A stretch of 64,000 nucleotides of DNA from Cytidiella melzeri (taxonomy: Eukaryota; Basidiomycota; Agaricomycetes; Polyporales; Irpicaceae), in NCBI GenBank assembly GCA_022592445.1, contig JABYQR010000025.1:62001-126000 (forward strand), read 5' to 3'. A model generated the notes under the pieces. That model saw nothing but the letters and a program-made list of their open reading frames with translations. It was not told the DNA's origin and ran no database searches. Of this stretch, positions 1 through 50,345 are shown in pieces; position 1 is the stretch's first letter; each line of letters starts with the position of its first letter. Made by a program: the position numbers and the translations under genes.

Positions 1-903
1 GACAATCTGGGTTTCTGCCTGACGACGTACTAGCTACTCTCGCATCTGAGGCTAAGATCAGGACTATGGACGATCTGAACCTAGCTCTGCCCGGCTGGAC
101 TTTTGCTTTCGGAGCTTGGCCCGGGTGCTCTCTCTCATATTGCAGAACTGGATGCTGATTGGCTCAAGAAAAACAAGTCAGGTATACAATCGCGCGCAGC
201 TGAACGCAAGGCTGAAACGATACGCATGAAGCCTATCACAGAAGAAAAAGAACGTGAGCGTCGCGCAGGAGAACGCGAGGTAAAGCGCTTTGCAAAAGGA
301 GGAAAGCCGCGCAAACAACCTGGAGAAGTACAGACTACAACGCTATCCCCAGCTTATTATGCCAATCCGATGGGAGCTTCGACACTTGTTCTTCAAAGCA
401 GCACTATTCATACCCCCGCAACTCCCGTCTATCTCCCTCCTGATGCCCCCGCAACTCCTGTCTATCTTCCTCCTGCAGCACAACCAGCCAGCCCCTTTCC
501 CTTTGTATCCACTTATTCAGGCCCGACATCATCAGTTCCGCATACACCCAATGCTACGTCTCAGCATGTCACACCCGGATACTTGCCCTTAACGCCTCAT
601 ACGCCTGTGTTGCAACCTTGGCCTCCCATGTACTATACTCAAATGCCCAGTCCTCCAGCATCCGTTACCTCATTGTCGCATATTTCCATGACCTCTCCCA
701 CAAGCCCAGCGCATGTATACCCGTTGCCTTCAGCTCATAGCACAATTGCTCCAGCGCCGCTTTGGCAGCCTTACTATACCCCCACCACCACTACATCGAC
801 ACCTGTCGCTTCGTCTTTGCAGACTCCCTTCCTGTATCCAACACCGCCTCAAAGCAGTTCAAAGTTTCGATGGAAAGCAGATCCGCGCTCGTCTACAAGC
901 TGA
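1..903 (+). pseudogene. RecQ-like helicase, C-terminal part (element A), 5' partial
   Basis: Only the 3' end of the gene lies in the window. From base 3 the reading frame gives a block with FLPDDVLATL, IRTMDDLNLALPGW and then SELGPGALSHIAELD. It aligns with the end of the RecQ-like gene at 38,882-41,127 (FLPRSLIARV, IKTKDDLRARLDGW, YGDYLWDEV), so the call rests on similarity inside the window. Near base 105-112 the frame changes by one base in a T-rich run, so this copy looks frameshifted. After a basic stretch (RERRAGEREVKRFAKGGK) comes a Pro/Thr/Ser-rich tail of about 190 residues with repeated TPVYLPP units, ending in TGA at 901-903. The helicase motifs would lie left of the window. It converges on the DUF6589 gene, with 34 bp between the stop codons. 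Confidence 0.5.
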
Positions 904-937
904 TTCTGCAAATAATGTTGTATGTACATGAATATTA

Positions 938-3819
938 TCAATTCTGTGCTACACTCGTGCTTGGCTCTGTGTGAGTCTTGTTTGCCCTCACCGACATCGA
1001 GTCCTTGTACCTCTGGACCAATGTATCTACATCGTCAAATATTTCCTTGTCCGACTTCTCTGTCAATCGTCTCTCTGTCCATCTGTCAATCATCGCCTGC
1101 AGGGTCTTTGGATTAGAGCCAAGGGCCATAACGTCCTTAACCTTGTTGTTCGATGTTAGATGGCGACCAGGCTTGAAGACATGCGCCTTCGCCTCGTGAT
1201 ACTTCCCCTGCAGCTTAACGACGTCCTCATGGTGGCTTGGCGATGTGTGAGACAGCCCGCGACAGAAATGATTGAATTCACGTTCGACGTGATGCTTGAT
1301 TTTACGTTGCGTAGGAATTGATGCCGACATCCTCTTGATGTAATCCCATGTTGCGTACGGTCCCAAAGTTGCAAATGTAACCTAAAAACTTGTAAGCTCG
1401 GTCGATGAGGACAAGGATGAGAAGTGTACCTTAATATCTCGGATATTGTGTTCCTGCACCATGTCAAAGGCGAGGAATGAGTTCTTTTTGCCTGTGGTGT
1501 TGGCAAGCCAACAGAAGCGCATCACGAACGACCTGTAATAATTGTTCAGCGGTGAGTACTCAAAGGAACAGGTACGTACTTAAGATCATCGGGCCACTCG
1601 CGCCACAAGCCTTGCATCAGCTCGAGTAATTCATGTGCTACTTGTGGTTTCCGCCACCATGGAAGCGGAACAGCAGCCGCGGAAGTAAATACTCCATGCG
1701 CCCTACATCACCCGTCGGATGCAGTCGTCCAAGTCGAGGAAGTCGAGTGTGTCACGATTGAATTGCACGCTGAGATCAAAAAGATCATCTTGGGCGGAAC
1801 GAGACTTGTCAGGTTGCCGAAGCTTGACGAGAGCCTCTGTAGAGGCGTATTCGTCAACCACCTTGCACGCGAGATCTCGAAGTTCTTGGGGTGTTTGTTG
1901 ACGAAGCTCCGCGAGCTCTTCAACACCTGCCGTGACCGTCCAAACGTCTCGGAATCGAGCTTCAGCGTGTGCCGTAACGCCTCGCGGAAGGTATAATGAA
2001 AGTTGCCTAGCATGAGAGCTTCATCAGTAAACAGTTCTCGGATATATCGCAGAACTCACCTTGCACTGACGTAGTATTGAGCCCTTTGCGGTTCAGATTT
2101 TTGAATGCTGCTTGAGACCGAGATTCTCGCTGCTGCCGAGATACTGCTTGTGCATCGAGAACTCTTGGGCAATTTGAGCGTGGAACCAGCCGAATATTTC
2201 CAGGAACTGCTCGAATCGCTGGATGAAGTTGAGATCGAACGCTCGATCTCTCTTGACAAACCGCAGCCGAATCATGGTGAGCTGATCGCCTACCCAAACG
2301 ATAAGCCTGTTTGCCATCGGCTCCTGTCTTGCCTTGACATCCGTGAGGCCAAGCTGCCGCTTCCACTCGTCGTTAACTTGGCGGTTACCCTCCTGAGTCC
2401 CCTCCTCCATATGCACAGTGTCAAGGACATGCTGGACGGTAGCATGCTCCAGACCAATAGGAAGCTGCTGAACCGGCGTGGGACAGGCTAACGCAGCATC
2501 GGCCTTGTGCTCCCAGTCTGTAAACTCGGGGGCTTCGAGGAGTATGCTGAGTACTATATGAATGCGTTGCTCATAGAGGCGAGGTCCAAAGTGTCGGGCC
2601 TTGAGAAAGATCTCGAGTGCGGTGATAGGATTTTTGCACTCACGTGCTCGCTGTTCCATGTACGCAATTCGATTGGAGGTGGTACGGAGGTGTCCTTCAC
2701 GATGTATATTGTCCCCGCAGTGCCGTTGTCAAGTGGGACTGCTTGTTGGCTCGCTGCTCGTAGATCTTGAACGCAAGGTTGAGATTGTCGTGGCCGCCGA
2801 ACCAGAGGTAACGGATGATGTCGTCCATCATGCGCTGGCGGTTGGAGTCGGACAGCTGCTCGATGCCTTTGTAAATCCACTTCTGACTCATCTGAGTCCG
2901 AAGAGGTGCGTGGTGTCGTTTGCCTTCGCAGCAAGTCTGGATGCCTTGAGATAGATGCTGAGAAATTTTTGATATCGGCAGCGGTGGTGGGAACTTCCAT
3001 AGTGTAGCATTGCACCGATAATGAAAATACGCTGCAAATTGATCAGTACAGCATTGGTGAGGTACGAGAGAAGCAATCTTACCGGCTCGTGGCTCTTGTA
3101 CTTGTTCCGCTTCGCCTGAAGCGGAGTGCACGAGAGCGAGTGCATCAGCTTCCAAAAGGTAGGCTGAGTGGCTTGCATAGCGGGAATGTCGTCCTTGAGT
3201 CTTGTGGCAAGGAGGGATTCTTCAGTGATGTCCTGCGGCGGCGACAAAAGCTGAGGCGCAAATAATCGCATCTCGCGATTGATGCGTGCCGTCACATTCT
3301 CCAACGCCCAATCGTCCATAGCGTTACGAGCAGCCGTAGTGCAAACACCCCAGCTGTGTGGTCGTGGCGGCTTGTGCCAGTTCTTGAGGATGCCGGGCAG
3401 CTGTTCGCTATGCATGAGCGCTGTTCGAGCGTATCTTGACGAGAGTTGAGGTCAAATGGATACAACTTATTGTATTTGAGTACATACCTGATAGTTCCCT
3501 CCTCATGCTTCATGTCAACGGGTACCTTCAAATTCCAACTCAAGAAATGTAGGAAGGTGGTGACGTCCATCTGCAGTGAGGCCATATGCTCGATGATGCT
3601 GGCCATCTTGAGGGCGATATCCGCATTGGTAAGGGTACTTAGGTGGCTCATGAATAAGGTCGTTCGAGCAAGCGGTCCTCCCGCGGTTTTGAAAGAGTTG
3701 TCGACATGCAGCTGGGCTTCCGGTGGCAATGGCTCGACTTCTCCATCGTGATATTCGTTGTCGTCGTCGTCGAGGTTGAAAAAAGGGTCACCGTTGTCAA
3801 GAAAATCAGAGGCTTGCAT
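938..3819 (-). pseudogene. DUF6589-domain protein (element A), two frameshifts
   Basis: Spliced minus-strand gene matching the DUF6589 family of Agaricomycetes, whose function is not established. Landmarks in order: an acidic start (FFNLDDDDNEYHDGE), GGPLARTTLFMSHLSTL, SEQLPGILKNWHKPPR, an intron then RIFIIGAMLHYG, AAKANDTTHLFG, GHDNLNLAFKIYEQRAN, VHMEEGTQEGNRQVND, VWVGDQLTMIRLR followed by WFHAQ, NRKGLNTTSVQG|NFHYTFREALRH, and a basic C-terminus ending at 938. Introns are about 50 bp; the first appears to end in AAG. One frameshift lies at a five-base A run (2098-2102 on the + strand), and a second lies just after the ETFGR motif near 1,935. The GDQxT...WFH block loosely recalls the second Asp and following W/C-H of RNase H-fold (MULE-type) transposases, which is inference only. 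Start chosen at the ATG at 3819, upstream of the first conserved block. Confidence 0.7.
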
Positions 3820-3952
3820 GTTGAGGATATTATCGCACGAGTATCAGGCAGAAGGGAGGAACAAAAATGGATTCGCGGTGGTACGGAAAAACAAAGTGCT
3901 CGTCGCGCGGACGTTGCAATTATCTAGGCGCTCGATGATGGGCTCTATCGAC

Positions 3953-3998
3953 GTCACGTGGGAGTGATCCCTACCCCTCTCCGCGAAGTACACCAGAC
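3953..3998. repeat. Terminal inverted repeat, right end of element A
   Basis: Read on the minus strand, this begins GTCTGGTG, has GAGAGGGGTA in the middle and ends near CACGTGAC. The same pattern is found at 34,631-34,680 (same sense as this minus-strand reading) and inverted at 38,411-38,459. It lies just upstream of the DUF6589 start, where an element end is expected. Confidence 0.65.
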
Positions 3999-4119
3999 CC
4001 TCAAGCAGACGTCGCCAGGGCTCCTTTCCTAATCTCAAGCCTGCGGAGTGTACTGTCTTTTTCGAACTCCGCAGCTTGATTAGGAAAGGAGCCCTGGCGA
4101 CGTCTGCTTGAGGGTCTGG
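3993..4119. repeat. Long hairpin at the outer end of element A
   Basis: Bases 3993-4034 and 4078-4119 are perfect 42-bp reverse complements. Pairing continues inward across TCAAGcCTGCGGAGT / AACTCCGCAGCTTGA with a single bulge, giving a stem of about 57 bp around a loop of roughly 12-16 bases. The first bases of the left arm overlap the terminal repeat. A weaker hairpin occupies the matching place next to the right repeat of element B (38,452-38,526). Confidence 0.85.
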
Positions 4120-4880
4120 GTACGAGACTAGATATTGTTCGTAAAAACTACTCTACACATGTACACAGAGCAATCGGGCTGCTGGAGCAGCTTTCAATGC
4201 AATATTAGTCACTTTGCTTCTGCAAGACGGTCATAAAATATGCAGTACATCAGTCAGAATCTCTATCCATCAATCTGAGTAAAGTACAGAAACTCACTGC
4301 TCAGTCTCTACCGACTTCATCCCTCGCATTTACAGTACTTTTCTTACACCAAAATAACGCTATAGTCGTCCTTCATTGTTCACAGTATACTTAGAATATT
4401 CGGACGTGCGCAAGTATCGAAAGTACTAGTGTTCGTAAAAACAGGCGTTTACGAACACTGCATCAACGATAGTAGTGGTCGCTCACGCAACTTCGGTGCG
4501 TGTCTTGAAGAATCACGTTGACATGAGGAGTAGGGAGGCGTGTTTTTGGGTCAAGTTGAAGAGCTTTAAGGGGAAGTGGAAGCCTTGCCAACCGTCCGCG
4601 GCGAGTCGCTGTGTCGCTCACTGAGTGTGCAACCCGATCGGTGCTCATCTTCCAGGCGACATCGGCAGTGTAGCATCAGAGGCATAGACGACAATACACA
4701 CCTTGTACTCTACGTACAACAGCTGTGGACCTCGACACGTCGTCGAAGTTGGGGTGGATGGCGAGTGGCGAAAGCAAAGTCCATGAAGAGCTTGAGCGCC
4801 CTAGCATCCCTTTCTGCTTTCCGACCAACAGCGACTGGGTAGCAGTCCGAGGTCACTTCATGATTCCTTGCAAAACTCCC
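4120..4880. other. Intergenic region upstream of RRP6
   Basis: No supported gene. It holds the RRP6 5' flank and a short palindrome (4428-4459). The upstream ATG at about 4761 is in frame with RRP6 but the peptide it would add has no family resemblance. Confidence 0.5.
4428..4459. repeat. Short inverted repeat, 12-bp arms
   Basis: AGTGTTCGTAAA, an 8-base spacer, then TTTACGAACACT: perfect 12-bp arms. A related half site (TTGTTCGTAAAAAC) occurs near 4,135. It may be the end of a degraded element or a binding site for a dimeric factor; nothing in the sequence decides between these. Confidence 0.6.
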
Positions 4881-7800
4881 ATGGCTGCACCTTCGACGAG
4901 TTTGCCTCCGTTAGCGAATTTTGACGACTACAACACACAACTACAAGGGGCAGCCTTGACGGCGACACGAAATGCAGTTTTCTTGCCAAGCGACCTGGGC
5001 TTTTACCGGTCCATGGACAGAGCTATTGCGAAAGAGGTTGACACCTGTTCTTCCAGAGTTTTATCTCTGACTAGTCGACTCCTAGACCTCGTCTCAACAG
5101 GGAATAGCAGCACCTCCAAGTCAAAGGGGAAGGTGGTGTTGGACCATGACGATGTTATAGATAACTTCCGCTACTCGGTCGTGGATCCCATGGACCGGTT
5201 ATTAGAGCGTGCAGTGAGTGTTTAATGCTGCTGTGATTAGTTTGCAAGGTGCTCATCGGGCTGTTGCAGGATATCTGCTTGGACAACGTCTTGGGTTTGA
5301 CGAAGCAGCCCCTGATAGCTGTCAATCCTCAAGCACCGAAGCAAAAGGTAGTTGAACACTCAAGTCTTCGAGACTTCTCTTACGGTACATATTTACAGGA
5401 TGTCAAGAAAACTGTCTCAGCTACAGGCCGCTTGGACCCGGCTCTTCTACACGCGTCGCATCTTCCCAAACCTCAGCTCAAATTCTCGCGAAAACTGAAC
5501 TACGACGCGTCCTGCCCATGGCATCCAAAACTCCGACACAAATACAACGCTAAAGTGCCTCTGGGATACGACCTCCGTGATGATGAAAATGTTCAAATGG
5601 ATACGGACAGCTTGTATGTGGATTGTGCGTCCGTTCATCCGGAATACCGGCGTAACTTGCATGTATATAGGCAACATCCTTACCACTACGAAATCAAGAA
5701 CATCACATACCCACCGCATATGTTTGTCTATGGGGAGCCGATCCCTCCCAAGTCCTTCGAGACTACTCCCTTCAAGTGGGTAGAGTCACCAGCAGAGCTG
5801 TCCGCTATGCTAGAACATTTGCGGAACGCGAAGGAGATTGCTGTCGACTTGGAATATCATAGCTATCGGTCTTTCGCTGGTTTCGTGTGTCTCATGCAGA
5901 TAAGCACTCGAGAGTCGGACTGGATTGTCGATACTTTGACGTTGAGGCAGGAGCTCGAGGACCTGAACGAAGTTTTTACCGACCCCAACATCGTAAAGGT
6001 ATGTCGTCTGACTCGATATACTGTAGTCTGTATTGCCGTTAAATATCTTTCGATCAGGTTTTACATGGTGCTGAGAGCGATGTCATTTGGCTGCAACAAG
6101 ACTTTAACTTGTATATCGTCAACTTGTTTGACACCTACCACGCCTCTAAAGTTCTAGGTCTGTTCGTCTGCATCTTCTCTGATTCAACTCGTCTGATCTT
6201 TGTACCACTAGAGTTTCCAAGGCATGCGCTTGCTACCTTGATGGAAATGTACTGTGATTTCATTCCAGACAAGCGATACCAACTCGCCGACTGGCGCATA
6301 AGGTACGCATCCTTATATCCCAGCTATGAACAAGCCTTAACTTTATATGTCTTGGGTAGACCCCTCCCGCAAGAGATGCTGAAGTACGCCCGCTCCGACA
6401 CTCACTTTCTCCTTTTCATCTACGACAACCTCCGAAACGCACTCATCGACCGTGCACAATCGCGCTCAGCGTCGCGTGCCCAAAGCCCCTCTAGCCCTTT
6501 GGCCAGTACGTCAATCAGCGGAGAAAACTCTCATACGTTGGTTCGCGACGTGTTATCTCGCTCGCAGGACACCACACTGAGAGTGTTCGAGCGCGAGATA
6601 TACGATGCCGAAAACGGGTCAGGCCCAGGGGGTTGGGACACCCTGGCTAGAAAATGGAACAAGGGGGCGTTGATGGCTGCGGAGCGTGATAGTTCACGGA
6701 GACGTGTATACCGCGCCATGCATGCGTGGAGAGACTACGTTGCGAGGGAAGAGGACGAGAGTACGAGGTGGGTGTGTTTCATGCTTACAGTCCGGCGCAG
6801 TGTGCGTACTGACACCTTGGGGGTTTCGCGTGTAGATACGTGCTCCCAAATCATCAGCTGTTTTCGTTGGTAGAGCAACCGCCCAGTGATATGGCGAGTT
6901 TGCTGAGCATGTTCCAACATGTCCCTGCCATCGTTCGCCGGCGCGCAAAAGAGCTGCTAGATACCATACGTGAGGCTTCGAAGGATACCGCGTCTGTAGA
7001 AGTGGTTGCGGTGCCTGAAGCGTCAGACGTGGTGATGGGCGCGATACAAGAATCGAAGGAGACTATGCACGAGGTTGTGTTATTGGCGAACGACAGCAGA
7101 CTGTGGCCCAGTGGTGAGCAGTGTCCGCGTCATGACGTGAGCGGGTGATTTACATCTCCCATCGCAGGCCGGAAAACTGCGAGGATCGTTTCATCGTTGT
7201 TTCCTGAATCCAGAGGCACGATGCTAGGTCCGGCCAGTCGGAACGGAAAGCTATTTATGACTTCACACAGCGCACTGTTCCCCGGGAAAATGCCATCGGA
7301 GACTGTGAGCTCTATTCACGATTTGTGATTTTTTGAGGGCCTAGCTGATCGTCATGTTGGCCGAACAGAGCGTTGACTTGCGGAAACAGCGAGTGCAGGA
7401 TGTCCACGGCCGACTTGTTACAGGACCTGCTGCGCCATCAATCACATTGCCACCGAAAGTCGCAGATTCTGCTTCGGCCGAAAGCGCAAGAGAAAACATA
7501 CCCGGTCAGGCGGAGATGCCGTTTGTACCGGCGAAGGAACGACAGGAGATAAACCCCGCAGCGGTAGTGACAACCGTAAAGGACGCCATTGTCGTGGTTG
7601 GACAGCCCCAGGGGAAGAAAAGGAAACGAGACAAGAAGGCTGCGGGCTCCTCTGTTGTGGCAATGCCCAGAGCTGAGTCCGAGATTGCGGCTGCTAGCAC
7701 GCCGTTTGACTACACTGCTGTATCTAACATCCTGGACGACGGTTCGGATCACGAACCAGAGACCACGCTGGGAGGTGGACGAAAACGCAAGCAGAAGCAC

Positions 7801-35785: not shown

Positions 35786-36408
35786 TAGACATTATTGACT
35801 ACATAGCAAGTCTCCAGATGGACACTGCCACCTTTCTCCATTACCTCAGCTGGAATCTTGACATACCTGGGCATATGACACGCGAGCAGTCTGTCATTAG
35901 GTGAGTAGAATCCTTGAAAGATGTGTCGAGATGTGAGGTGTACTGATAATGATTTAGATGTGCTCGCACCACTCTGATGCACTGTGAGCAACTGCCAGGC
36001 ATCCTGAAGCACTGGCACAAACCGCCGCGCTTACACGAACAAGGTATCAGCACCCGCAGAGCTAGAGATACCATGGACAGGTGGTCCTTGGACAACGTTA
36101 CGGCTCGCCTCAATCGTGAGATGCAAATTTTCTCTCCCCATCTCGAGTCGCCGCCCGAGCACATTTCTGAGGAAAACCTCCTCGGGACTAGCCTCAAGGA
36201 TGACATTGTGAAGATGAAGGCCCTGATGCCAACCTATTGGGAGCTGATGCATGCGCTCACGTGTACGCCGATTCAGCTCAAACGGAACACGTACAAGGAC
36301 CATGAGCCGGTGCGTGTTTGTTCTTGGGATTGAGTCATTAAGCTAACATGTTTGTTAGCGCATCTTCATTATTAGAGCAATGTTGCAGTACAGCCGTTTG
36401 CAGAAGCG

Positions 36409-38090
36409 GTGATACGCCCGGAAATCGGCTAGGCGCAGAGACCCGGCAGCAGCCCGCCATTTGCACGGCCCGCGTCATCCTGAGCGGCAAGTCCCTCCAC
36501 TTTCCCAGCGTCACAGGCACGAGGAATTTGCCGAGGATCCAAGGACTTGACAAGGAGCAGCAACGCACCGGAAACATCCGAAGCCGAGGAATCACACCAA
36601 ACTCTGACTCACAGACACGTCCCTTGTGCATCGGAGCATGGGCCGGCCAGCCACCAAGTGTTTCGGACGCAGGTCGGACCAACGGTAGAAGAAACTTGAC
36701 GCGCAAACCCTGTTTCAGGAAGACTCCTATCACGCCATGCTGTGTAACTCCTGGACGGCGCCTCATCACCTGCTCGCGATGGTTGGTGCCTTTTCAGCGC
36801 AAGGGCGTGCGCCGCTACTTTGCGTCGACCAACGCTGTGTCCCGCCGGGTGTCGACTTGCTGGACATTTTGCCTCCGCAGACGGAAGTATTCTGCCACCC
36901 TGTTTCCTCGCTCTCGCGTTTGGGTTTAGGACATAGAAGGAAAGGTTTAGGAGAGGGTCTTTAGGGTATATAAAAAGCTGTTGCTTGTACTGCATAGAAA
37001 TCAATCCCCACCCCAGTTTCCAGAGTTCACTTTACGCTTTGCGCTCGCGTCGAGGGAGTCTCTTTGTGCCCATAGCTGTAGCTTCTTTTGCGTTGACTCA
37101 CTGCGACTTCTTTCACGTTTATGTCCGCTGCGTCTACCAACAACAACCCGCCTCGAGTCTGCCGTTACTGTCTCACTGTTCCCCACCTACCCGACGGTCG
37201 CTGCCCTTACCGCCCGCGCCCGCGCGAGGTTCTACGCCATTACCCCATCATCCCCGCGCCCACGCCGCCGCCAGAGCCCTCAGCAGCGCCTATGGTCTCC
37301 TCTGAGAGATCTACTCCTAAATCACCCTCGCCAGCGTTGTTTGCCGCCTCCGTCGCGGACTCGCTTGATAACTGCTCTTACTGCGACACTCAGAGCAATC
37401 ACCCAATTCCCCTACGTTCAGGACCTTTTGTCCCGCTTGACTGCGATCGCCTGCGCGCGCCGCACCCAGATTGTTGGCTGTCTCCAGACTTTGAAGGCGA
37501 GGATCACAAGTGCGAACTAGTGCAGTTCAATCTTACCAGCTCTACCAACGTTGTCGTTGGCCACGCATTCGCCTGCAATACGCATTGCCGCTCGGGGAGT
37601 GTTGTTCTACACTACCGCCCCCGCGTGCAGTCTGTCGAGTCAAATTGACTGCGATCTCACATAGCCTTACGCTGCGACTCGCGCTCCATAAGTTTATCTT
37701 TCTCTTCCGGTTCCTTTCGGTTTTGTTATACTGCGTTTGCTTTTCACTGCGTTATTTTACTGTGTTACTGCGTTGCGTTTCACCTTCACTGCATCGAGCT
37801 TACTGCGTTCACTTTCACTGCGCCCGCGTTTTACAGCAACTTTTTCATCTTCACCAGCGACCGCGTTTTGTGTTCGAGATTCATATTGTGCCTGCGTTTA
37901 CCATCTGTGTTTCTCCGCGCGCTGTCTTATCACAAGTCGCGACGTCTTCCGCGCGTTCTCTTTGAGCCGCACTATAACTCTTTCGCTTTCACCGTGCCGA
38001 CTCCCCCTTTTACCCGCGATACGCGTGGTAGTTACCCGCCTAGCTACCTGCGCATACACTTTATCATCAACCAAGGTTGTTCTTAGTTTG
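36409..38090. mobile_element. Second LTR-like insert in DUF6589 B
   Basis: About 1,682 bp flanked by the direct repeat AAGCG (36404-36408 and 38091-38095). It starts (G)TGATACGCCCGGAAATCGGC, the look of Ty3/gypsy LTRs in mushrooms, and has TATATAAAAAG near 36,966. The right end (TTCTTAGTTTG) does not give a clean CA, so the exact borders are uncertain. Its length is unusual for a solo LTR, and it includes an open frame (37,121-37,648). Confidence 0.6.
37121..37648 (+). CDS. Hypothetical 175-residue ORF inside the LTR-like insert
   Basis: Downstream of the TATA-like site near 36,966. It starts MSAASTNNNPPRVCRYCLTV and has Cys pairs (CRYC...GRC; NCSYC) that could bind zinc, a Pro-rich middle and no recognised domain. 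It may be a gag-like or LTR-encoded frame, or chance. Codon use was not tested. Confidence 0.3.
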   Translation: MSAASTNNNPPRVCRYCLTVPHLPDGRCPYRPRPREVLRHYPIIPAPTPPPEPSAAPMVSSERSTPKSPSPALFAASVADSLDNCSYCDTQSNHPIPLRSGPFVPLDCDRLRAPHPDCWLSPDFEGEDHKCELVQFNLTSSTNVVVGHAFACNTHCRSGSVVLHYRPRVQSVESN

Positions 38091-38410
38091 AAGCGTGACT
38101 CAGTGTCTCAGTGGTGTCTCTATCAGAAGGTTCTTAGCATCTACTTTAAAGCATGTGGCCTTGCGGCGAAGGCGAACGACACAACTCACCTCTTCGGCTT
38201 CACCATGAGCCAGAAGTGGGTCTACACTGGTATTGAGCAGCTCGCTGAGGACAACCGACGTCAGATGCTTGAAGACATTGTGCGTTACATCATTTTTAGC
38301 GGGCATGACAACCTCAACCTTGCTTTCAAGGTTTACGAGATGCGCGCGAACCACAAATCACATTTCAATAGCGAGACTGTGACATCGAGCTTCGACATGC
38401 GACGTGATTT

Positions 38411-38459
38411 TGTCATGTGCGATTGAGCAGTACCCCTCTCTGCGAAATTCACCAGACGT
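38411..38459. repeat. Terminal inverted repeat, right end of element B
   Basis: Contains GATTGAGCAGTACCCCTCTC and ends AATTCACCAGACGT. It is the inverted partner of 34,631-34,680 and is similar to 3,953-3,998 in the same orientation. Confidence 0.7.
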
Positions 38460-38526
38460 CTGCTTTCCTCGCCTCATTGTGTTTTTGGAACTCTGCGGTT
38501 CCAAAACAGGAAACGCAGACGGCTGG
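38452..38526. repeat. Imperfect hairpin next to element B right end
   Basis: The outer arms CCAGACGTCTGCTTTCC and GGAAACGCAGACGGCTGG pair with one mismatch and one gap. An inner 9-bp stem TTTTGGAAC / GTTCCAAAA closes a 6-base loop. It occupies the same place as the long hairpin at 3,993-4,119. Confidence 0.65.
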
Positions 38527-38881
38527 TTCCGAGACTACTCATCAGCTTGATAAACGGACATGTCCACTTAGTCTCCCCAAGGCAGAGTAGACGGGCGTTC
38601 AACCTTCGTGCCTCAGGATCTCTGTCTGACGTCTGCGTCTGTTTCACCCCCCTTTTGCAGTAGGTGTTTCAGCGGCTATTACGGTGTCTTGTGATCTTGT
38701 TTACCGCGTTGAGATCTGGATCTGCCACCCAGCACGACGTGTCGCTCTCGCTCTCCAGCACGACATGTTACTCTTGCTATCCTTCCTCAACTCACGTCCA
38801 CCAGCTACACATATCTGTATATGTTGGCAATTACCATACAGTCTCGAATACATTTTTTTTCCTCCGTCTATTCTTGTCCTG
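38527..38881. other. Upstream region of the RecQ-like gene (element C)
   Basis: About 350 bp without a gene. It probably contains the RecQ-like promoter and, if element C has its own terminal repeat, its left end. No inverted partner was recognised near 49,700-50,340. Confidence 0.4.
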
Positions 38882-41127
38882 ATGCCTGCACCACCAACAA
38901 TGTCCGACTGGTTGACGCGGGGACAGTATGACTGGCGTACACCTGAGGGGATTGCGCAGCTACAAGAGCAACTGCGTCCTAAGCTCCCATGGGAGCCAAA
39001 CATCAATCTCCAGCTCAAGCCATTGGCCGAGCTTTTGATGGGCAAGCATGGGCTGGTCATCTCTGCGACGGGTGATGGCAAGTTGGCCATTTTCTACACG
39101 TACTCGCTCATGAGACCAGACACCATGACAATTGTGGTTGCGCTGACCAATGCTCTCGAAGATGATATGGTGAGTTTCTCGACTGGCAGTCTGTTCCATT
39201 GCTGAAATGTGCGACTTCACAGGTCAGAAATCTTGCAAAGCTGAACATCTCAGCTATAGCACTCAACTCCGAGGCTCTTGAGTCCGCGACACTGGCGAAC
39301 ATACATTGACCCACAGCAGAGAGGCGCGACCTCTGGAAGGAAGCACGCGAAGGACAATACCGCATCCTCCTCATGTCCCCGGAGATGCTACAAACCAAGT
39401 CGTTCAGGATCTTTATTGAGAACGCAAATGTCTGCAAGTGTCTTTCCTTGTTTGTTGTTGACGAATGTCATCTGGTGGACGAATGGGGGGCCAACTTTCG
39501 AAAGGCATACGGGGAGATTCATCGGACAATACCCTGGCTTCCCCCTGGAACGGCGTGTCTTGGCTTGATGGCCACGCTTGAACCCCAACGACAGACAGAC
39601 GTCATCACAAAAGCGTTGGGCTTTCAATATGGCAACTTCTTCTTGGAACGACGGGACTGTGAACGCCAAAACGTCAACATCGTGATGCGTACTATCAAAT
39701 ACACCCATACGACCGAATATTTCCGCGACCTTGATTGGCTGGTCCCAGCCGACGCCGCGGTTGTTGCCGATATTGACAAGACTTTGCTCTACTGCGAGAC
39801 TATCTTCCAAGGCCACAAGATTGTCAAATACCTACGTTCGCTGCTTCCTCGGCGCTTGCAACCGCAGCAGACAATTGTGGTTTGGCACGTCCATTCCCTG
39901 AACTGTCCTCACTGCAAAATTCAGGTTTCCGAAGGTCTTTATGTACCTTCCAAGGACAGGCAAACGGCGATCTACGTTGCGACGGATGTCCTAGGTGTTG
40001 GGATGGATGTTCAGGATTTTGACCGAGTGATATGCTTTCCAACACTGTCAAGTGCAGCATCCATGATTCAGAAGGCTGGGTGCACATCACGTGGACGTGA
40101 TCATCATGGGACGGCCTACATCTACATTAAGAAGACTGATATCGAGGCTGTCAATGCATATCTGCAAAGACCAAATCTGGACAGCCGGCTATTAAGGGGC
40201 TCCATATGAGATGTAGAGGGCAAGAAAGTCTTGGGAAAAGTTGGTGCTACCATCAATTTGACCGCATGGCTCAACAACCTCTCTCTCTGGCTCATCATTG
40301 CTGCACATGTACAAGGTGTCTGCATTGTACGTCAAATCAACATGATCTACCAGAACCCTGCTGTCAACCAAGACTGTGGACATTGTAGTTCCTGTTTCTT
40401 GCATCCTATGCCTGCCCCTCGTCCTTTATCTATCACTGGTTGCTCTTCTACCACGCAGCCTACTACATCCATACCACCACTTGCATCATACATGAAGATG
40501 ACAACAAAAGATGTGGAGTACCTCACGAAAGAACTTCATACTGCCGCATGCAATGTCCGCTACTCCGAGATGCATTTTGGCCCTGATAGCCTCCTTGTTG
40601 GCTATTGAAGCTTCCTTCCACGTAGCCTCATTGCTCGTGTCACCAACCAATTCTTTCTCATAAAGACCAAGGATGATCTGCGGGCAAGGTTGGATGGTTG
40701 GAGGTATTGGGACAGGTATGGGGACTATCTGTGGGATGAGGTCACACGGCTTCAACACGAGATGACTGTCACTTTCACAACTCGTCACGAGGAGGTCTTA
40801 AAGCAGAGACGGGAGTCAACACGGCAGCAGCGAGAGAAGATACAGGAGGTTTGTGCCAACCTACGTGCTGTAGGTCTTGGCAATGTGAAGCAGGTAACCC
40901 TACGTCTTGCACCTCACTCATTGGATGGTTCTGGGCCTGAGGAGGCTAACAAATAAAACCAACCCAACCTCCTTCCTACAATCAGTGACAACAATTTAGG
41001 GGGAGCAGATGCTGGCTCTGTTAGTTCCTTAGCTCCTAGCTCACCACAAAATCCAAGTCGGAAACGCTCACAGAGTGATTTGGAGACAGAGCGTCCAACA
41101 AAGCAAGCCAATCATAACAATGATTGA
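38882..41127 (+). pseudogene. RecQ-like DNA helicase (element C), three in-frame TGA codons
   Basis: Superfamily 2 helicase of the RecQ type found in mushroom mobile elements. Start MPAPPTMSDWLTRG at 38882. Motif I is SATGDGKLA; an intron at about 39,169-39,222 follows EDDM. Then MSPEMLQ, motif II VVDECHLVDEWG, motif III-like LMATLEPQR, motif V ATDVLGVGMDV and motif VI with QKAGCTSRGRDHHG. A RecQ zinc-binding block has INMIYQNPA and DCGHCSSC. The C-terminal extension has FLPRSLIARV and DDLRARLDGW, shared with the gene at 1-903. From exon 2 to 40,956 it stays in one frame, broken only by TGA at 39307-39309, 40207-40209 and 40606-40608. A further one-base shift near 40,955 leads to a basic tail (PSRKRSQSDLETERPTKQ) ending at 41,127. 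It is a probable pseudogene. Confidence 0.8.
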
Positions 41128-41191
41128 CTTCTATCTACTTTGTTCCTTTTTTGGCTCTGTAGCACAACTTGCATTACCACTAAGCTTCTAT

Positions 41192-41417
41192 CTACTCTGT
41201 TGACTGCTCATCTAATACATTATCGTCTTCATCTTCTAAATCTGTACCCAATACCAGTTCACCGTCTTGCCGGATACTGGGTCCCGGAGCATCAAAGTCT
41301 GCTTCGAGAGCATCCTCATTGTTCACTTCTTCAACACCATGCAAATTACCCATGTCTGCAAGAGTCCGTTGTACAAAGTCCTCAATGCGAGAAGTGTAGT
41401 CAAAGCGATCATGTCCT
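41192..41417 (-). pseudogene. Probable C-terminal fragment of DUF6589 C, cut off by a DIRS element
   Basis: Minus-strand open frame: HDRFDYTSRIEDFVQRTLAD, then acidic VEEVNNEDALEADFDAP and GTDLEDEDDNVLDEQSTE, stop at 41192-41194. Its place and strand fit the missing end of the DUF6589 gene at 46,974-49,684, with DIRS copy 1 between. It then converges on the RecQ-like gene with about 65 bp between stop codons, the same layout as element A. The assignment rests on position and composition. Confidence 0.5.
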
Positions 41418-42056
41418 GCTTCCTAAGTGCTTAGCGGCTAAGCTTGAGGGTCACAAAGGAATTAAAGGAATTTTAAGGGACGTTGTGGGGGATACATCCC
41501 GTTTCCGCAGTACCTGACTAGTAGTCAGAAAATAAATTTAATCTGAATTGAATAAATATTAGCCTTAGTCGGGGGGGGGGCCTGGCCCCCCACTGGCACA
41601 CTTTCGAAAGCTTCCGGCAGCCTGTAGGTGTCTTTCCGGGCTTAGAAAACCACCGGATACCGGAAGATTCGTGCGCATTGTGGAGCGCTTGTTTTGAGCT
41701 TCGTGGCGCGGGAAATCTCCCAAAAAGGGAGTGATTGTCCAAACTCCTCCTCGATAACAATGCGGCGGGAAGCTGCAAGGAAGGGTCAATGCCCGAAGGA
41801 GGAGGACAAAACGCCAGCTCGTGTGTGCCCGAGTCCGACTGAGCGTGAGGTGGAAAACGAGATGTTGCGAACACGACTCACCACCAAAGGCGTGAGCCAC
41901 AACAGTCGTGCGCAACGCGAGGCGACTCACCCCCAAAGGCTTGTGCCAACTATGAATTCTTTGATACCCCCATCAGGGAAGGCGGTGTTTGTTTGAAAAG
42001 AGACTGCAAATACATATTATGAAATGCAAATTATGCAAATTATGCGGGGCGATTTG

Positions 42057-43483
42057 CTAAGTGGACAGTACAAAAGAGCGCGATTTGTGGAATTTGTCTA
42101 TTGAGTCCTGAGCCAACTGAACGCGAGACTTGTCAAAAGAATTTGAAATAAAAAGAGGAAGAATTGAATCTATTTTCCGCCAGTACTCGAGAAACGCGCG
42201 TGACCTCCAACCTCCTTGGACTGCGACGATATCCGGGGGAGTGCCTCGGAGAAGGAGTTCAGTGGCTCCTCCGATTCGGAAACAGTGACCCGTCAGCGCA
42301 CTTAAACCGGCCTTCGCCCACGCCTGGTTGCAACGCACCAGGAACCATTCGCGTGTCATTGGATCCCAGCCTCGTTCTGAATGGGAGACGAAAGAAAAGA
42401 AGGGAGCGTCAGGAGGAACTTGTCGTTGCATCTGAGATGATGTGCAAGGGCACGGATTGGGGAAGTAGGTTCGCCGTTCTCTGTGACTGTCAACACAAGG
42501 CCGGCGTATTTGGTAGTTTTTGACCACGGTATAGCGAGGGAGTAATACGATTTCCCATCCGGGAGGGAATTAAGCTTTAAGGGCGCGGAGCGAGCGACGT
42601 GTTTCGCCTTGACAAAACCGTGGGATGATGGGATCACGAGTTCTCCTAATCGCCTCGTGCCCCAAAAGGCAAAACATGCAACCGCGAAGACAGCGGCATT
42701 GAAAGAGTTTGAAAGGTCTAAGTAAGAAAACAGTGCGTTCATGTGTTCGAGCGTGACAGGAGGACGCTTCGGCTTGGCGGAAGGTTGTACCTTCAGCGCG
42801 CCCGCACATGTAATCTTCAACATTTTGGCACCAAGCCACAGTGCACCGTTAATGGAGTGCCAGAAAGACAGACCCGCGATCCAAGTATCGATGGTAGAGC
42901 GAGAGACAATGCCACCCCATTTAGCAACGAAGCACGAGAGAAGAACATCAGACGCTGGCATACGCCGCGACTCGGCAATCCCCAGACAGTCACAGTATTG
43001 ATTAAAACGTAGGAGGCCAGCACCGTAGTTCTTCCAAGTATTGGGTTCAATCGAAGCGAGCATAACCTTGAGCAAAGAGTCAGAAGCGTCAACTGAGATA
43101 TCAGCGACAAGAGATTGTCGGAAATTTAAAGCATGAGGGGTAGTCCAGAAAGTGAGACAATCTGCAGCAAGAACAGGAGGGCAAAGGGTAGATGGGTTAA
43201 GAGAGTTTGCCAACAATGGCTTCCTAGGTTTGCGACGGCTCAGAGTTCGCGGAGAAGGGGAGTCCTTCCTCTGAGAAGTCGACGTGTCCGCACCTGCGCA
43301 CGCAATACTTGGAGGCTTGCTAGACATGAGAAAGCAGGGGAATAAGCTCTTCCGGTAGAGCGAGAGACGGGAGACGAAGCGAGGCCGAGCCCAAGATACC
43401 GCGAGATACGGGGTCGGCCAAGTTTTCTTTGGTGTTGACGTAGCGAAGAACAAGATGCAAATTGAGGGCCGCCAGGATGACAA
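42057..43483 (-). pseudogene. DIRS copy 1 tyrosine recombinase, one frameshift
   Basis: Phage-integrase-type recombinase that would insert the DNA circle. The N-terminal region is Ser/Arg/Lys-rich (SPSPRTLSRRKPRKP). Then come LASIEPNTWKNYGAGLLRF, SDVLLSCFVAKWGG, FAFWGTRRLGELVIPSSH with the first catalytic Arg region, the box II sequence GHCFRIGGATELLLRG (His-x-x-Arg) and GGWRSRAFLEYWRKID with the likely Tyr. Compared with copy 2, one G is missing near 42,418 (CAAGTTCC against CAAGGTACC), splitting the frame between 43483-42356 and 42527-42057. It overlaps the end of the RT frame by about 160 bp, as usual in DIRS elements. Confidence 0.8.
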
Positions 43484-45562
43484 CCACTCGACGAATAGAG
43501 AGATTTACTTGGAAGTTTCGGCTGCGGCCTCTGTTGACCGCGCCCACCACACCGATGTTATCGCTGCGTACTAAAATGTCAGCGTTGGAATAACCTAAGC
43601 TCTCAAGGGAGAGCGTTGCAAGCTCGACCGCAATCATCTCTGCCCATCCAATGTCACGGCTGTTCGCCTTCCACCCTTTGGTCAACCTCCAAGCGGCCCA
43701 TCTTCCGTCGATAATAATTCCAACGCCCCAGCTCGAGGATGCGTCCACCCAAATGCCCACATCTCGCAGGTCGCCTCGCGGAATGAGGGAACGTGCGATA
43801 CCCGTCGAAGATAAAATGTTTCTCCACCAATCCATATCAGTCTTGACTGAGTGCGGGACGTACCGTAATTCGAAATCGTTGCGGAAAGATGCAACGAAAT
43901 TGCAGAGGTTAGAAAGGAAGGAGCGGCCTTGAGGGAAGACAAAACTGATGTGAGAGAGGGTGCCGTTGAGTGACAGAATGAGACTTAGAGGCACTCGACG
44001 CCGTTCCAACGCCAAACCGCAGAAATCCTCGACCTTCCACAAGTACTTGAGGCGTTTGACGTCTGGCAAAGCAACCGTGCGCTTCGAGAGGTCCCAAAGA
44101 AAACCTAGGTAGACCTGCAAAAACGCGAAACCCCAGCATTTTCCGAGTTTCCAAGGTACGCCTAACGGCCGGGTGACCCTAAAAATATCCTCCACGTCGA
44201 AAGCGTAAACCCAGTTGTCCACACTCGATCCGGAGATTGGGAAACGAAGTTGCGCCAGATCGTCAACCCACTTGGCGTTCGGGGCTTGAAAACGCGCACG
44301 CAAAATATCCACGACCGCGTCCATGACCTCGCCTTGTACCCCTGGGCCAGAGGAAATTCCGAAAGGACAAACATGGTCCATGTAAAATTTTCCTGGTTCG
44401 CATTGTATGACGATATAAGGCTTGTGACTCGGTAGAATGGGGATATTCCGGAATGCGGAATCAATGTCGAGGGAAGCCGCCTGGGAACCAGGCGGTGCTG
44501 TGGCAACCTGTGAACCAAAGGACAAGTGAATAAAGGGTTATGACTCGACTTGAGCCACCCAAAAGAAGGCAGGCGGAGAGCGCCTGATAACCGAAATAAG
44601 AAAGCACGCTCTCGAATTGAGGCGGCAACAATGATTCTTCCGCTGCGAGAACTCATATTCGAAATGAGGCAGCGAATAGAAGGAGCGTCGACACTCGAAA
44701 AGGAAAATATGGGCCCGTTCGCGAATTGCAATGTTTCCAAATGGCTCTAAATAAGAGTAAGACTTACCATCTGTGCGAAGATTGCTGCGGTCCCCCAGGT
44801 GGTCGTAAACTCATCTGAATCGATGTTGTCGTTAACCGACATGCCCTTGGAATCTTTGAATGAGCAATTTTGGATCAGTCTGAGCTTGTTCGAACCAGCT
44901 TTCTCGACTACTGAGAGCGGCGAAGAGACAAATGCGGAATTGAAGATATTTTCGAGTTGCGACTGCGAGAAAGGGCCGGACATGCGTCCGAGGGAAACCT
45001 GCTCATTGACATAGTCCTGAATGAAGTCCATATGAGCAATGCCCGTCTTAGAATTGGCGGGGGTGAAAGAGACAGAGCGAGGGCGAAAGTTTCCAATTGG
45101 GAAACCACAACGAAGTTTATTGGGGAGATTCTGGTATTTTCCCAAGAGACCGAACTTATCGAGTTCTGAGGTGAAGAAATCTGCACGATACGGTGTGATG
45201 ATGCGCTCCTGTTCAGAGGCACCGCTTACTACCGGCGTGATGACCGGTGGCACCACAGAGCGAGCAGACGTGAGAGGATCTACCGGGGCAGCGGAATCCT
45301 CTGCAGCCTGAAGGCTGCCCACCGGACTCGGAGAGATTCCAGAACAGGCAAACATCGGACCCGTCTTTGACACTAACGAGACGGCCTCGCTCGAACGCGC
45401 AGAAGATGGGTTTGCCGTTCCTGAGGGTCTTCTCGTTGCAGTCTTTTGCGTGGTGGCCGTTTGTTCCGCCGTGGCCGCATTGAAGGCAGAACAGCCTGGC
45501 GCCAGGCTGTCTGCCGCCCTGAAAGGGCTTGCTACCTTTGCTTGGGCCCTCGCCCCGGTCAT
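43320..45562 (-). CDS. DIRS copy 1 reverse transcriptase / RNase H, with intron
   Basis: Reverse transcriptase then RNase H. The upstream exon has FGLLGKYQNLPNKLRCGFPI, NKLRLIQNCSFKDSKG and WGTAAIFAQM. The downstream exon begins VATAPPGSQAASLDIDSAFR, with PFGISSGPGVQGEVMDAVVD, the catalytic WVDDLAQL, GFLWDLSKRTVALP, and RNase H parts (IWVDASSSWGVGIII, EMIAVELATLSL, VRSDNIGVVGAVNRGRS). An intron at 44,508-44,767 (260 bp; donor GTAAGT, acceptor CAG, phase 0) lies between ...FAQM and VATAPP and contains stops. The same intron is in copy 2. The RT frame overlaps gag by about 350 bp. No stop or shift was found in the exons, so this part may be intact. Confidence 0.8.
44508..44767 (-). other. Intron in DIRS copy 1 RT
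   Basis: Donor GTAAGTCTTAC, acceptor TTCACAG. Joining the flanks restores the RT block QM|VATAPPG. The corresponding intron in copy 2 is at 53,500-53,770. Confidence 0.8.
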
Positions 45563-46808
45563 ACGTTTCGCGACGATCTCCAGTAGGACCCCTATCGCGT
45601 CCCAAGTATTTGTCCTCGCGGGTGCTCAGCCGCCCCAAACGCTCCCCCTTGTTGTACGGATGGTAGGCTCGTCCTCTATCCTCGACTTCCACTTTCCTTC
45701 TGGTGATTGCTCTATCCACGTTATAGAAGCGTCGCTCATAACTCTGACTCCCCACTCCGAATGTCGACCAGGAGCCACCAAAGAAGGACTCTCTAACTTC
45801 TCGATCGAAAGCCAAGATGGTTTCGAAAGAAACTTCCATTTCCTCACGCTCGCCCAGAGAATCGAAGTGAGCCGTGAAGAGGTCCCGGACCTTGGTAGAA
45901 CACGCCTTATCGAGTACGTTTACGAAGTTCTTCCACGCCTGCCACCAATCGTCCTTGGACATATTGTCCTCGCTAGCGTATTTTGAGACGTCGATAATGT
46001 AGCTACTCACCCCTTCTGCGTTATGAACCTTCGTAAATTTTGGACCTTCGCTCCTTATTTGGCGCATAACCCTGTTCGTACACATGGACAGCGGCAGATT
46101 ATGCTTATGTCTGATCAGAGCAATAAACGATTCCGGAGGTTTCGCCACACTGCTAAAAAGATCCTCGTTGTTGGCGACGTCGCATACCGGTAACGGAGGT
46201 CGGGTAAGGGAGGTTAACGGAGTGGAGGGTGCAGCTGCCAAAGGGGGTCCATGCGATCGAGCTTCGACGGGAGCACCAACAGGGTTGGACTCGGAAGCGG
46301 AGGACCTGGCTATATGCGCCTGATCTGAGTCCAATTTCTTCTTCATCAAAACGACAGCCCTTTGTATCGATCCTGGACTCATTTCTCCCAGTAGTTCCAG
46401 GAACAGCCTCTCGGATGAGATCCAAGGAGGAGTTCCTAGAGTTCCTGCAGGCGTCAAACGCGGCAGAGCGCTTGCATCCCTCGAGGGAGGGTGAGGGGAT
46501 ACGTGGCCACCGAGGTCTTCATCTTCCGAAACATCTTCGTCTCCCCTCCCACGCCTCACTGCTCTATCCTCGTTACGCACCATCCTCATTTCTAGTTCCG
46601 CGGCCGAAATCCCATCTCCGAAGCCGTCCACATTATTTCCACCAATACCCACCGGCATGACTTCAACCATAAGAGGGAGAAAGGTACCTTGAAGTATAAG
46701 AGATTGCAAAATTTTTCCCGAGGAACGAGTAAGAGAGGGTGGATGCGTGATGGTGGCGAATGCGAACTCGAAAGAGATAATTCGAGGGCGTTTCGCCTCA
46801 TCACGCAT
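45213..46808 (-). CDS. DIRS copy 1 gag-like protein
   Basis: 531-codon open frame. A coiled/charged N-terminus is followed by LLGEMSPGSIQRAVVLMKKK, ALIRHKHNLPLSMCTNRVMR, VSSYIIDVSKYASEDNMSKD, WKNFVNVLDKACSTKVRDL and an Arg/Gly-rich stretch. Two zinc-knuckle-like motifs close it: CLQCGHGGTNGHHAKDC and CSLCGATGHHAGSKRC. It probably forms the particle that packages the RNA. Its end overlaps the RT frame by about 350 bp in another phase, and the overlap is kept in copy 2, which suggests linked expression by frameshifting or reinitiation. Confidence 0.75.
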   Translation of the reverse strand: MRDEAKRPRIISFEFAFATITHPPSLTRSSGKILQSLILQGTFLPLMVEVMPVGIGGNNVDGFGDGISAAELEMRMVRNEDRAVRRGRGDEDVSEDEDLGGHVSPHPPSRDASALPRLTPAGTLGTPPWISSERLFLELLGEMSPGSIQRAVVLMKKKLDSDQAHIARSSASESNPVGAPVEARSHGPPLAAAPSTPLTSLTRPPLPVCDVANNEDLFSSVAKPPESFIALIRHKHNLPLSMCTNRVMRQIRSEGPKFTKVHNAEGVSSYIIDVSKYASEDNMSKDDWWQAWKNFVNVLDKACSTKVRDLFTAHFDSLGEREEMEVSFETILAFDREVRESFFGGSWSTFGVGSQSYERRFYNVDRAITRRKVEVEDRGRAYHPYNKGERLGRLSTREDKYLGRDRGPTGDRRETYDRGEGPSKGSKPFQGGRQPGARLFCLQCGHGGTNGHHAKDCNEKTLRNGKPIFCAFERGRLVSVKDGSDVCLFWNLSESGGQPSGCRGFRCPGRSSHVCSLCGATGHHAGSKRCL

Positions 46809-46973
46809 CTAGCCGCTCGCTTAGTAAGCACTTGCTTACCTCATCCGCTCGTTCCTCGCTTTGAGCCAAGCAGCACGCTGCGAAGTCGTCTTGAGCCATG
46901 AATCCAAAGGTCCGGCTTGCTCAAAACTTGTGGAGCTTGTGTTCGTGCATGGTGTTTCGGAGATGCCTCAAAG

Positions 46974-49684
46974 CTACTGCTTTTTTCTTTTGCTTGTGGC
47001 TACCACTCTTTGCACCAATTCCAACAGCTGTTCATAGAGACTCTTTGATATCTAGGAAATTGCGAATGTTCAGGGAAATAACCTCTTTGAAGAATGGATC
47101 AGCAAATGGTGAACTGCGGCTGCCTGACATTGATTTTAGGAGATTGATGTTATGTTCTTGCATGAGATCCATTGGAAACCAGTGTCCTTCATCCCCAGTC
47201 AAGTTACACAACCAGTTATTCATGATGGCAGTCTTCAACTCATTGGAGTATTCATATTCTAAGTTGCAAGCCACCTCCAGAAGCTCATTTGTGTATTTGC
47301 TTCTGCCTGAACCGCAGAATGTAAATACCCACACCTGCAATAGAATTTCTGAGTACACACAATACATTGTTTGCATACGGTGAGAAAACACATACTGCCA
47401 TCACATTCATAGCACGTCCAATGTCCCCATCAGCAATGGCTGATTGGAACTCATAATGTAGCATGCTATCACACATACGCAGAATTGTGTTTGCCAGTAC
47501 TTGATCTCCCCTTGGTGCAGCAGGTGCTGAGCTTCCTTGGAACGGGCTGGTCCACTGAGAGCCTGCAGAAAACAGAGTCTCTGCAAGTCTTCCCTGTGAA
47601 GCACACTCAGCAGATGCTGTTGTGAGGTAGGTATTGACAAGACGCTGTGCATCCTGCAGAAGCTCATCAAGTTTTGGCTGTCTGGTGACCATATACACTC
47701 CGAGAACATCCGTCTGATAGTGTTCACTACAAAAGTGAGAAAATCTGTAAGCCTACTTGCCAGTAGTTAAGATCTGCTCCCATGGGCTTACTGCCAACAT
47801 TCAAGAACTTCTGCACGAAGTGTATCAAAGACAAGAGCCTGTGCTGGATAATAGTCGGGGTGTTTCATGTTCTTCACCTTTTGTCCAAGAAGCTCATTGA
47901 CAAAGCTGAATGTAGATACATCCTCGATGCAAACCTCACTCTCCTTTGAGCAAGATTTGGGACCCCAATGGGTGTCAAGAATCCACTCGAGGTCTGACCA
48001 ACCCATATGCCACAGCTGAATTAAAGGTAGAACCCAGCCATACTGGTTATAGCCGTGAGGACAGCTGTCAAGGAAACGCTTGAGGGTGCAAATTTTCTCT
48101 ATGGTGGATTGGTTGCCTGTCACAATAGTAAGCATGCGGTTGACTTCATCCTTCTTCAAGCCGAGCTGGTTGAGCAGCAGGTCATCAATAACCTTGCGGT
48201 TCCCCTCTGTGGACCCTTCATCGTGTTCTGAAGCAGCCATTGGGAATGCCTGGGTACGCCGACCTTTTCGCATACGATGTGTTGCTAGTTCGGTGCGGAG
48301 CTTGTTATTGAGCATTGGCTGAAAGTGTGATAGGTGCGGGAACTCCATCACAAGAAATGAGACAACGTGAACAGCAAGCACACGGTTAAGGTGGCCCTGG
48401 TTGATACGAGAAAGGAGTACTTCAACAGTGAGCTATTCTCGAAGTCTCTTTGCTCTTGCTTTCTAGGGCTGCAATATTGAATGCTTTCTCTGGTTCACAA
48501 TCTTCAAGTATGATCGCAGTTGCAACAGTTCCACTATCAATAACCGCCCGCTTGCCATATTCTGCATCCCACACCTCCCTCTTCCGATTGATGTTATTGT
48601 ACACAATGCTCAATACACTCCTGGTTGATTCTGTTCTCAGAGAGCTCTGTGCAGTCTGCGACAGACCTCTCAGTAGCTCAAGATTGGTTGAGTATGCCAC
48701 AGAGAGGCCTATTCTTCCGAGAACGTCGTATACACCACGAGCAGCTGAGTTTGCAAAAAGCCAAACACCCATCAACTTCTGAAGTACCGTAAAGCGCAGG
48801 TTTCGAGCATTCAGAAGCATCATGAATACAATGATAACAATCTGAGCATTGTGCAACCAGTCAGTGACTATGTGCTTGTGACTGAATTGATGACTTACAA
48901 CCCAGGGATCCCTCCTGTTTTTACCCTGACCAGACTGAGTAGCTCTGGTAGTAGTTGCACTAGGCAGCTGGGGAGCACCCTGCGCTTGAGCAAACCAGGA
49001 CGGAGGCTTCTTTCGGCCTTCCTTCAAGATAGCTGTGGCAGCCAGAACACAAATACATGTTGGAGACATTTTCCAAGCGGCTCTTGCAAGGGGGGCAAGC
49101 AAGAACTGCGCTGCAAACTCCCATGTCATTTCCCCAGCCAGCCGTAGTCCACCCTCTTTTGATGCAAGTTCCTCTGCCTCTCTGCTGACCATGTCCTCAA
49201 CCACTTCAACCGCCCACTGTTGCAGCTTATTGCGGGCCAAAAACTCCTCACTCTCATGGTTTCTTGTAGTCGAGTGCCTGCTGTTGTACAACTCCTTGAC
49301 AAGGCTGATAGCGTCATATTGTTTTGAGCAGCCATCAAGAAAGCTGGACACCATCTGTGTATGGTGCTGGGTCTTCTTCTTTGTCCTGTCGGATCCAGCC
49401 CGGAAGAGCTCAACAAGGAATCCTCCAAGCGTGAAGTTATGACTTTGCATACATTGCAGGACGGCATCAAGGTGGGAATTCAGAGAGTCAAGCAGCGGAG
49501 GAGCAGTCAACTCAGGTGCGAGTACATGGAAGGCAACATCTCCAGACTCGGATGAGTCCCAAGTATGCTGCATAGATTGCAGATGAGGGCGTAAGTAGTG
49601 TAGAAAGACGTAACGAAGGCAGGCAGGCAGTGCGCGTTCGGAGCAGGAGATGAAACGCTCAAGACATGTTTGATCCTTGCTCAA
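46974..49684 (-). pseudogene. DUF6589-domain protein (element C), split by DIRS copy 1
   Basis: A diverged DUF6589 gene. Blocks: DQTCLERFISCSERALPACL, DAVLQCMQSHNFTLGGFLVE, RRDPW, an intron (about 48,842-48,900), IVIIVFMMLLNARNLRF, GVYDVLGRIGLSVAYS, SIVYNNINRKREVWD, DSGTVATAIILEDCEPEKAF, HLNRVLAVHVVSFLVMEFPH, EHDEGSTEGNRKVIDDLL, TGNQSTIEKICTLKRFLDSC, GYGW-like QYGWVLPLIQLWHMGWSDLE, DYYPAQALVFDTLRAEVLEC and, after introns, WFPMDLMQEHNINLL. The frame breaks near 48,430 and near 47,035. The first ATG is unclear; 49,684 is a TTG at the edge of the open frame. The C-terminal tail appears to continue at 41,192-41,417 beyond the DIRS insertion. The partner RecQ-like gene is at 38,882-41,127. Confidence 0.7.
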
Positions 49685-50345
49685 AAAGGAAACAGAATTC
49701 CAAATTGGGAACCTACTGCAAAGGCCCCCACGTCAAAACTCAGACTAGTGTCTGCTAAGCTTTCTGGATTTCCTTCGCTAGCGTCGCCGTTGCCATTCGG
49801 TTATAACGCCACTCTACTCGTCTCAAAATGCCGACAACTTCCTCCCACCACTTTCGCTTGTTGTCCTCAAACCCTTGAGCAAAACGAGTCAACTCGCACA
49901 TAGTGGTGGCCACAATCCCCTCGAAAACCTCTATACCATCTCTTTGTTTCTCGTAGGCTTGTGCAACGGGTCCGTACCCGAATCTCCAGTCAGTCTAAAA
50001 GCCAACACATCACCCCACAAATTTTCCAGGAAAAAGGATGGTTGACTGGAACAGCCCCGAAACGTTTGAGTTGTGCGCAATTCTCTTTCGCCAAACTGCC
50101 GTATTTGTCTTAGGGAGTTACATGTGAGGCTCTCCCATCTCATAGTTGCGGGAGAAGGGAGCTGATGGCATAGCTAGATGGTACCTCCTTCTCACTTTCA
50201 AAGATGTCGAGGCTCGCCTGCTCTTGCGACATATGCGCTTTCGCGTTGCCCACATACGTAGCCAGGTATTCTTTGGCGTGCTTTTATACAGCTACTTACC
50301 TACTTCAGATTCCTTATTTACTAGCGCGATATGCCAACCTTTGTG
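49685..50345 (-). other. Region upstream of DUF6589 C with a coding-like minus-strand exon
   Basis: At about 49,757-49,994 (minus) there is an open stretch: TDWRFGYGPVAQAYEKQRDG, then VATTMCELTRFAQGFEDNKR and WWEEVVGILRRVEWRYNRMA, ending in a stop after EIQKA. It follows an acceptor-like CTTTTAG. It could be an upstream exon of DUF6589 C or the 3' end of another gene. No family is recognised. The remainder up to 50,345 shows nothing clear. Confidence 0.35.

Follow-up and report, generated by a model that had tools for sequence, protein, structure and literature searches.

Gene content of the two elements

In the genome of the wood-decay basidiomycete Cytidiella melzeri we analyzed a stretch of 64 000 nt (positions 62001-126000 of contig JABYQR010000025.1, here C168), which we call the window. 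A gene for a RecQ-like helicase and a gene of DUF6589 (PF20231), entered in Pfam as a family of unknown function, converge twice in this window, in two elements named A and C. A preliminary description of the window, made from its letters alone, had regarded the pair as a mobile cassette, and the terminal repeats and target-site duplications reported below bear this out. The features of both elements are as follows; coordinates are those of the window unless the contig is named.

C168:59335-66130: element A (DNA transposon, 6796 bp); left terminus at C168:59335, right terminus common to other copies
1..4130: part of element A inside the window (right side, 4.1 kb), with the terminus ...CGAGACTA at 4123-4130
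1..903, + strand: proline-rich C-terminal tail of the RecQ-like superfamily 2 (SF2) helicase gene; core upstream of the window
904..937: spacer of 34 bp separating the two stop codons, at 903 (+) and 938 (-)
938..3819, - strand: DUF6589 gene of several exons, predicted DDE transposase (PF20231 matches and alignment to P0005)
3993..4119: subterminal inverted repeat within the right end of element A, a 43-nt loop between two 42-nt arms that are 100% complementary
38569..49747: element C, a diverged DUF6589/RecQ transposon, TAGTCTCC...CAGACTA (from its 96-97% alignment to the copy L029 on contig C229, and from its termini)
38882..41127, + strand: gene for the RecQ-like helicase in element C; start codon from frame reading, stop approximate
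41192..49732, - strand: DUF6589 gene in element C, interrupted by a retroelement; approximate outer limits

The stop codons of element A and their distance of 34 bp, as first described, were verified. This element extends from C168:59335 to window position 4130, and not over 1..4119 as originally given. P0005, the annotated relative aligned to its DUF6589 gene, has 878 aa. The helicase motifs of element A lie upstream of the window at about C168:59815-62098; for one frame from this region BLM and other RecQ chains were the best PDB matches. Compared with the copy on contig C173, the helicase frame is broken near 100-125. Element C, placed at 38882-49684 in the preliminary description, spans 38569-49747. 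Its convergence, with stops at about 41127 and 41192, agrees with L029, an uninterrupted relative (96-97% DNA identity) with stops at 4517 and 4583, 65 bp apart. The helicase core of element C lies at 38882-40209, and the retroelement that splits its DUF6589 gene extends from about 41421 to 46876; the label DIRS for this insertion comes from the preliminary description alone.

PF00270 is present in both elements, whereas PF00271 scored over the cut-off in element C and under it in element A; both domains are recorded for annotated copies in this genome. The helicase frames of both elements matched RecQ chains in PDB. When 16 reading frames from the two elements were scanned against Pfam, only DEAD, Helicase_C, Cas3-like_C_2 and DUF6589 came up at E < 0.01.

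Genome-wide pairing and joint divergence

We searched the 49.7-Mb genome (731 contigs) for both genes. DUF6589 gave 120 matches, corresponding to at least 82 loci, which is a lower bound because only 102 of 216 candidates were scored; the RecQ-like helicase subfamily gave 74 matches at 70 loci. A DUF6589 locus lies within 8 kb of 49 of the 70 RecQ-like loci. As about 2.9% of the genome is that near to DUF6589 loci, only about 2 helicase loci would be expected there. Without hand-picked rows, 48 of the 70 helicase loci are convergent, 1 is divergent and 21 are unpaired at the 8-kb limit. Counted from the 82 DUF6589 loci (RecQ-like match within 8 kb), 51 are convergent, 1 is divergent and 30 have no partner; two of the 51, on contigs C466 and C725, depend on hand-added DEAD matches. 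The pairing of the two genes in this genome is real and goes beyond chance.

The two proteins are as far apart between the elements as had been described, with 24% identity between A and C for DUF6589 and 26% for RecQ. Over 19 loci, the pairwise distances of one protein correlate with those of the other (Mantel r = 0.84; 0 of 9999 permutations). Example DUF6589/RecQ identities to element A are 0.64/0.66, 0.48/0.48 and 0.72/0.79, with 0.24/0.26 for element C; the mosaic locus L031 (0.64/0.20) is an exception and was retained in the test. Nonsynonymous divergence (dN) is far below synonymous divergence (dS) for both genes in 20 of 21 pairs from seven loci, with dS often saturated, and the remaining pair is nearly identical. 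Judged from these comparisons, purifying selection acts on both proteins, which diverge in step.

DUF6589 occurs in more than 20 named Agaricomycete species among the homologs listed. A protein search with a RecQ C-terminal query returned only 4 proteins at E 1e-10 and one with a better query returned 76 at 1e-20; both scored only the 7993 candidates with most words in common. Eleven species other than C. melzeri are common to the DUF6589 matches (best 120 of 159) and the 76 RecQ matches. In three of the 11, both proteins lie on contigs of equal size (Irpex rosettiformis, 358818; Daedaleopsis nitida, 4884068; Lyophyllum atratum, 1602564), a weak sign, as a shared contig does not mean adjacency.

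Element ends and target-site duplications

Alignment of copies gave the element ends TAGTCTCG...CGAGACTA, with terminal inverted repeats TAGTCTC…GAGACTA that are replaced by CAGRCTCCTACCCAG in a distant lineage. Both ends could be paired in 21 copies. Exact 9-bp target-site duplications flank 13 of them (C127, C132, C151, the inner copy on C22, C352, C667, C112, C115, C49, C141, C101, C179 and C236), exact 8-bp duplications flank four (the outer copy on C22, C229, C111 and C130), and four have none (element A, the C173 copy, element C with 6 of 9 bases alike, and L023 on C17). The 17 duplications vary in sequence, and a TTAA duplication was found in none of the 21 copies. A blind scan, to which no end sequence was supplied, recovered the copies on C179 and C236, whose ends are perfect inverted repeats of 73 and 34 bp, respectively, of different sequence from the other copies. 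The stricter blind scan gave seven matches, six of them at element ends, compared to 0 in a control with right ends reversed but not complemented; a looser scan of 15 loci, run without control, gave four, two at element ends and two apparently by chance.

Short copies share the same ends and 9-bp duplications, the smallest being 136 bp long. These copies, compared by their ends and flanks, suggest that the ends alone are enough for mobilization in trans. Near-identical copies point to recent movement, although some may be assembly duplicates. With lineages only about 20% identical, the transposon family as a whole is old by sequence.

Some copies show further rearrangements. The locus L028 on C22 (1463-9054) holds an element nested in the terminal region of a second one, each with a separate duplication. 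Element A and the C173 copy share an identical left flank of 1447 bp or more (about 5718-7164 of L009, on C168); the roughly 70 bp immediately outside the element differ, the right flanks are dissimilar and neither copy has a duplication. This combination of shared left flank, unlike right flanks and missing duplication points to copies that recombined with each other or to sequences joined in assembly. In the C173 copy most of one arm of the 42-nt subterminal inverted repeat is gone. Directly before element C, at 35953-38537 on the + strand, lies another, rearranged A-type DUF6589 fragment that has the same terminus (...GGCTGGTTCCGAGACTA). Adjoining element A, at 4674-6873, is a host-like multi-exon gene with a putative resemblance to an Rrp6-type exonuclease.

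A predicted transposase and its place among known elements

In a structural comparison of the predicted DUF6589 fold, all of the 24 best rows were Hermes, P element, Tn5, ISCth4 or RAG1. Foldseek by itself gave no significant match, and the sole match of the DUF6589 sequence to PDB had an E of 0.76. A D-D-E triad is largely retained across the lineages, with its second D within the GDQxT motif pointed out in the preliminary description; in element C both candidate catalytic aspartates align with N. We predict for DUF6589 a DDE transposase with an RNase H fold, in line with the earlier suggestion of an RNase H-like candidate. Between the second D and E, rows having the column of the C/DxxH signature show GxxH or QxxH there. 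No relative was found in the viral contigs scanned. The name 'DUF6589' did not occur in the literature searched, which does not prove its identification as a transposase to be new.

XPG is the nuclease of AcademX transposons; its domain was not among the Pfam matches of the 16 frames, a subset of all frames in the two elements. DNA transposons of the related label AcademH were reportedly described by Kojima in 2020 (Mob DNA 11:15). According to a passage of PMC10045372, duplications are 9 or 10 bp long in AcademH versus 3 or 4 bp in AcademX, a difference tied there to helicase versus nuclease. An excerpt of PMC10799480, where DEAD and Helicase_C are given among the domains of AcademH, KolobokH or Helitron, describes AcademH in fungi as low-copy. 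KolobokH, in the section of PMC9587614 concerned, carries a RecQ helicase downstream of its DDE transposase and is reported from fungi only; Kolobok duplications are TTAA, and one rhodophyte Kolobok is said to have the helicase on the opposite strand. The 'new transposon architecture' proposed in the preliminary description thus finds no support, as these publications already present helicase-carrying fungal DDE transposons. The pairing itself is real, but this general type of element was known already.

We consider it likely that the elements are autonomous cut-and-paste transposons of the AcademH kind, with DUF6589 as DDE transposase and the convergent RecQ-like helicase as its partner. The sequence directly shows the convergent gene pair, defined ends, duplications, short same-ended copies, purifying selection and the joint divergence of the two proteins; the DDE fold is predicted, as is the triad. 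Among known element classes AcademH, as described in citing papers, appears to fit best. Common to both, as those papers describe AcademH, are a DDE transposase with a DEAD and Helicase_C helicase, a fungal host and 9-bp duplications; here an RNase H-fold transposase with conserved D-D-E is predicted and an SF2 helicase is encoded. The 9-bp length was found in 13 copies, of A-type and CAGRCTCC-type; exceptions within these types are the outer C22 copy, with 8 bp, and element A, the C173 copy and L023, which lack a duplication. The elements depart from this class in several points: duplications are 8 bp in the C-type copy on C229 and in those on C111 and C130, element C has no exact duplication, and at least 82 DUF6589 loci (fragments included) contrast with the low copy number stated for fungi in the excerpt of PMC10799480.

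KolobokH, the fungal Kolobok lineage with a DDE transposase followed by a RecQ helicase, has both proteins and is reported from fungi only in the section of PMC9587614 cited. We regard this identity as very improbable and rejected it on the 8-9-bp duplications: none of the 17 is TTAA, and no TTAA flanks the four other paired copies. In addition, the helicase is convergent here and not downstream (the rhodophyte exception of that section aside), and GxxH or QxxH replaces the C/DxxH signature. Less credible still is a neighborhood, by chance or nested insertion, of two unrelated repeat families such as a telomere-linked RecQ gene and a gene of DUF6589. One nested insertion does occur, on C22. 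Pair counts and orientation led us to reject a chance neighborhood; all but one of the 49 near pairs converge, both genes lie within single ends and duplications, and their proteins diverge in step (r = 0.84).

A separate superfamily, with a fold nearer hAT or P and a RecQ helicase acquired independently of Academ, deserves more weight than these two and is nevertheless unlikely. Hermes (a hAT element) and P element are the nearest solved folds, sharing with the prediction an RNase H core and a large helical insertion preceding the last catalytic helix. Nearest fold is, however, weak evidence of kinship, because PDB has few transposases. hAT elements make 8-bp duplications and have a hAT dimerization domain. 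Duplications of this length occur here in some lineages (four copies, versus 9 bp in 13 and none in four), and the domain was absent from the Pfam output for the 16 frames and the best 120 of 159 homologs. The same frames and homologs gave no Pfam tie between DUF6589 and a named transposase, an absence that rules out no family. Neither hAT nor P elements are known to carry a helicase, which is present here, and helicase, 9-bp duplications and fungal host together make up the AcademH set as published in the passages cited. It is similarly doubtful that DUF6589 forms a superfamily of its own that predates the roughly 20%-identical lineages and gained RecQ apart from Academ and Kolobok, its layout being kept while duplications drifted between 8 and 9 bp.

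In an element of the AcademH kind, DUF6589 as transposase would bind the terminal repeats, excise the element and insert it where the target is cut with a stagger, which would yield the 8-9-bp duplications. The RecQ-like helicase would probably open or remodel the ends or the gap in excision, insertion or repair. The cutting role is assigned to the transposase because of its predicted fold and the duplications, whereas we infer the role of the helicase, and likewise the split of labor between both proteins and the Academ membership.

The main gain is the predicted transposase role for DUF6589, which would assign a function to these proteins, and with it annotators could drop such genes from host gene counts. 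The many copies and their short derivatives offer material for asking what the helicase does.
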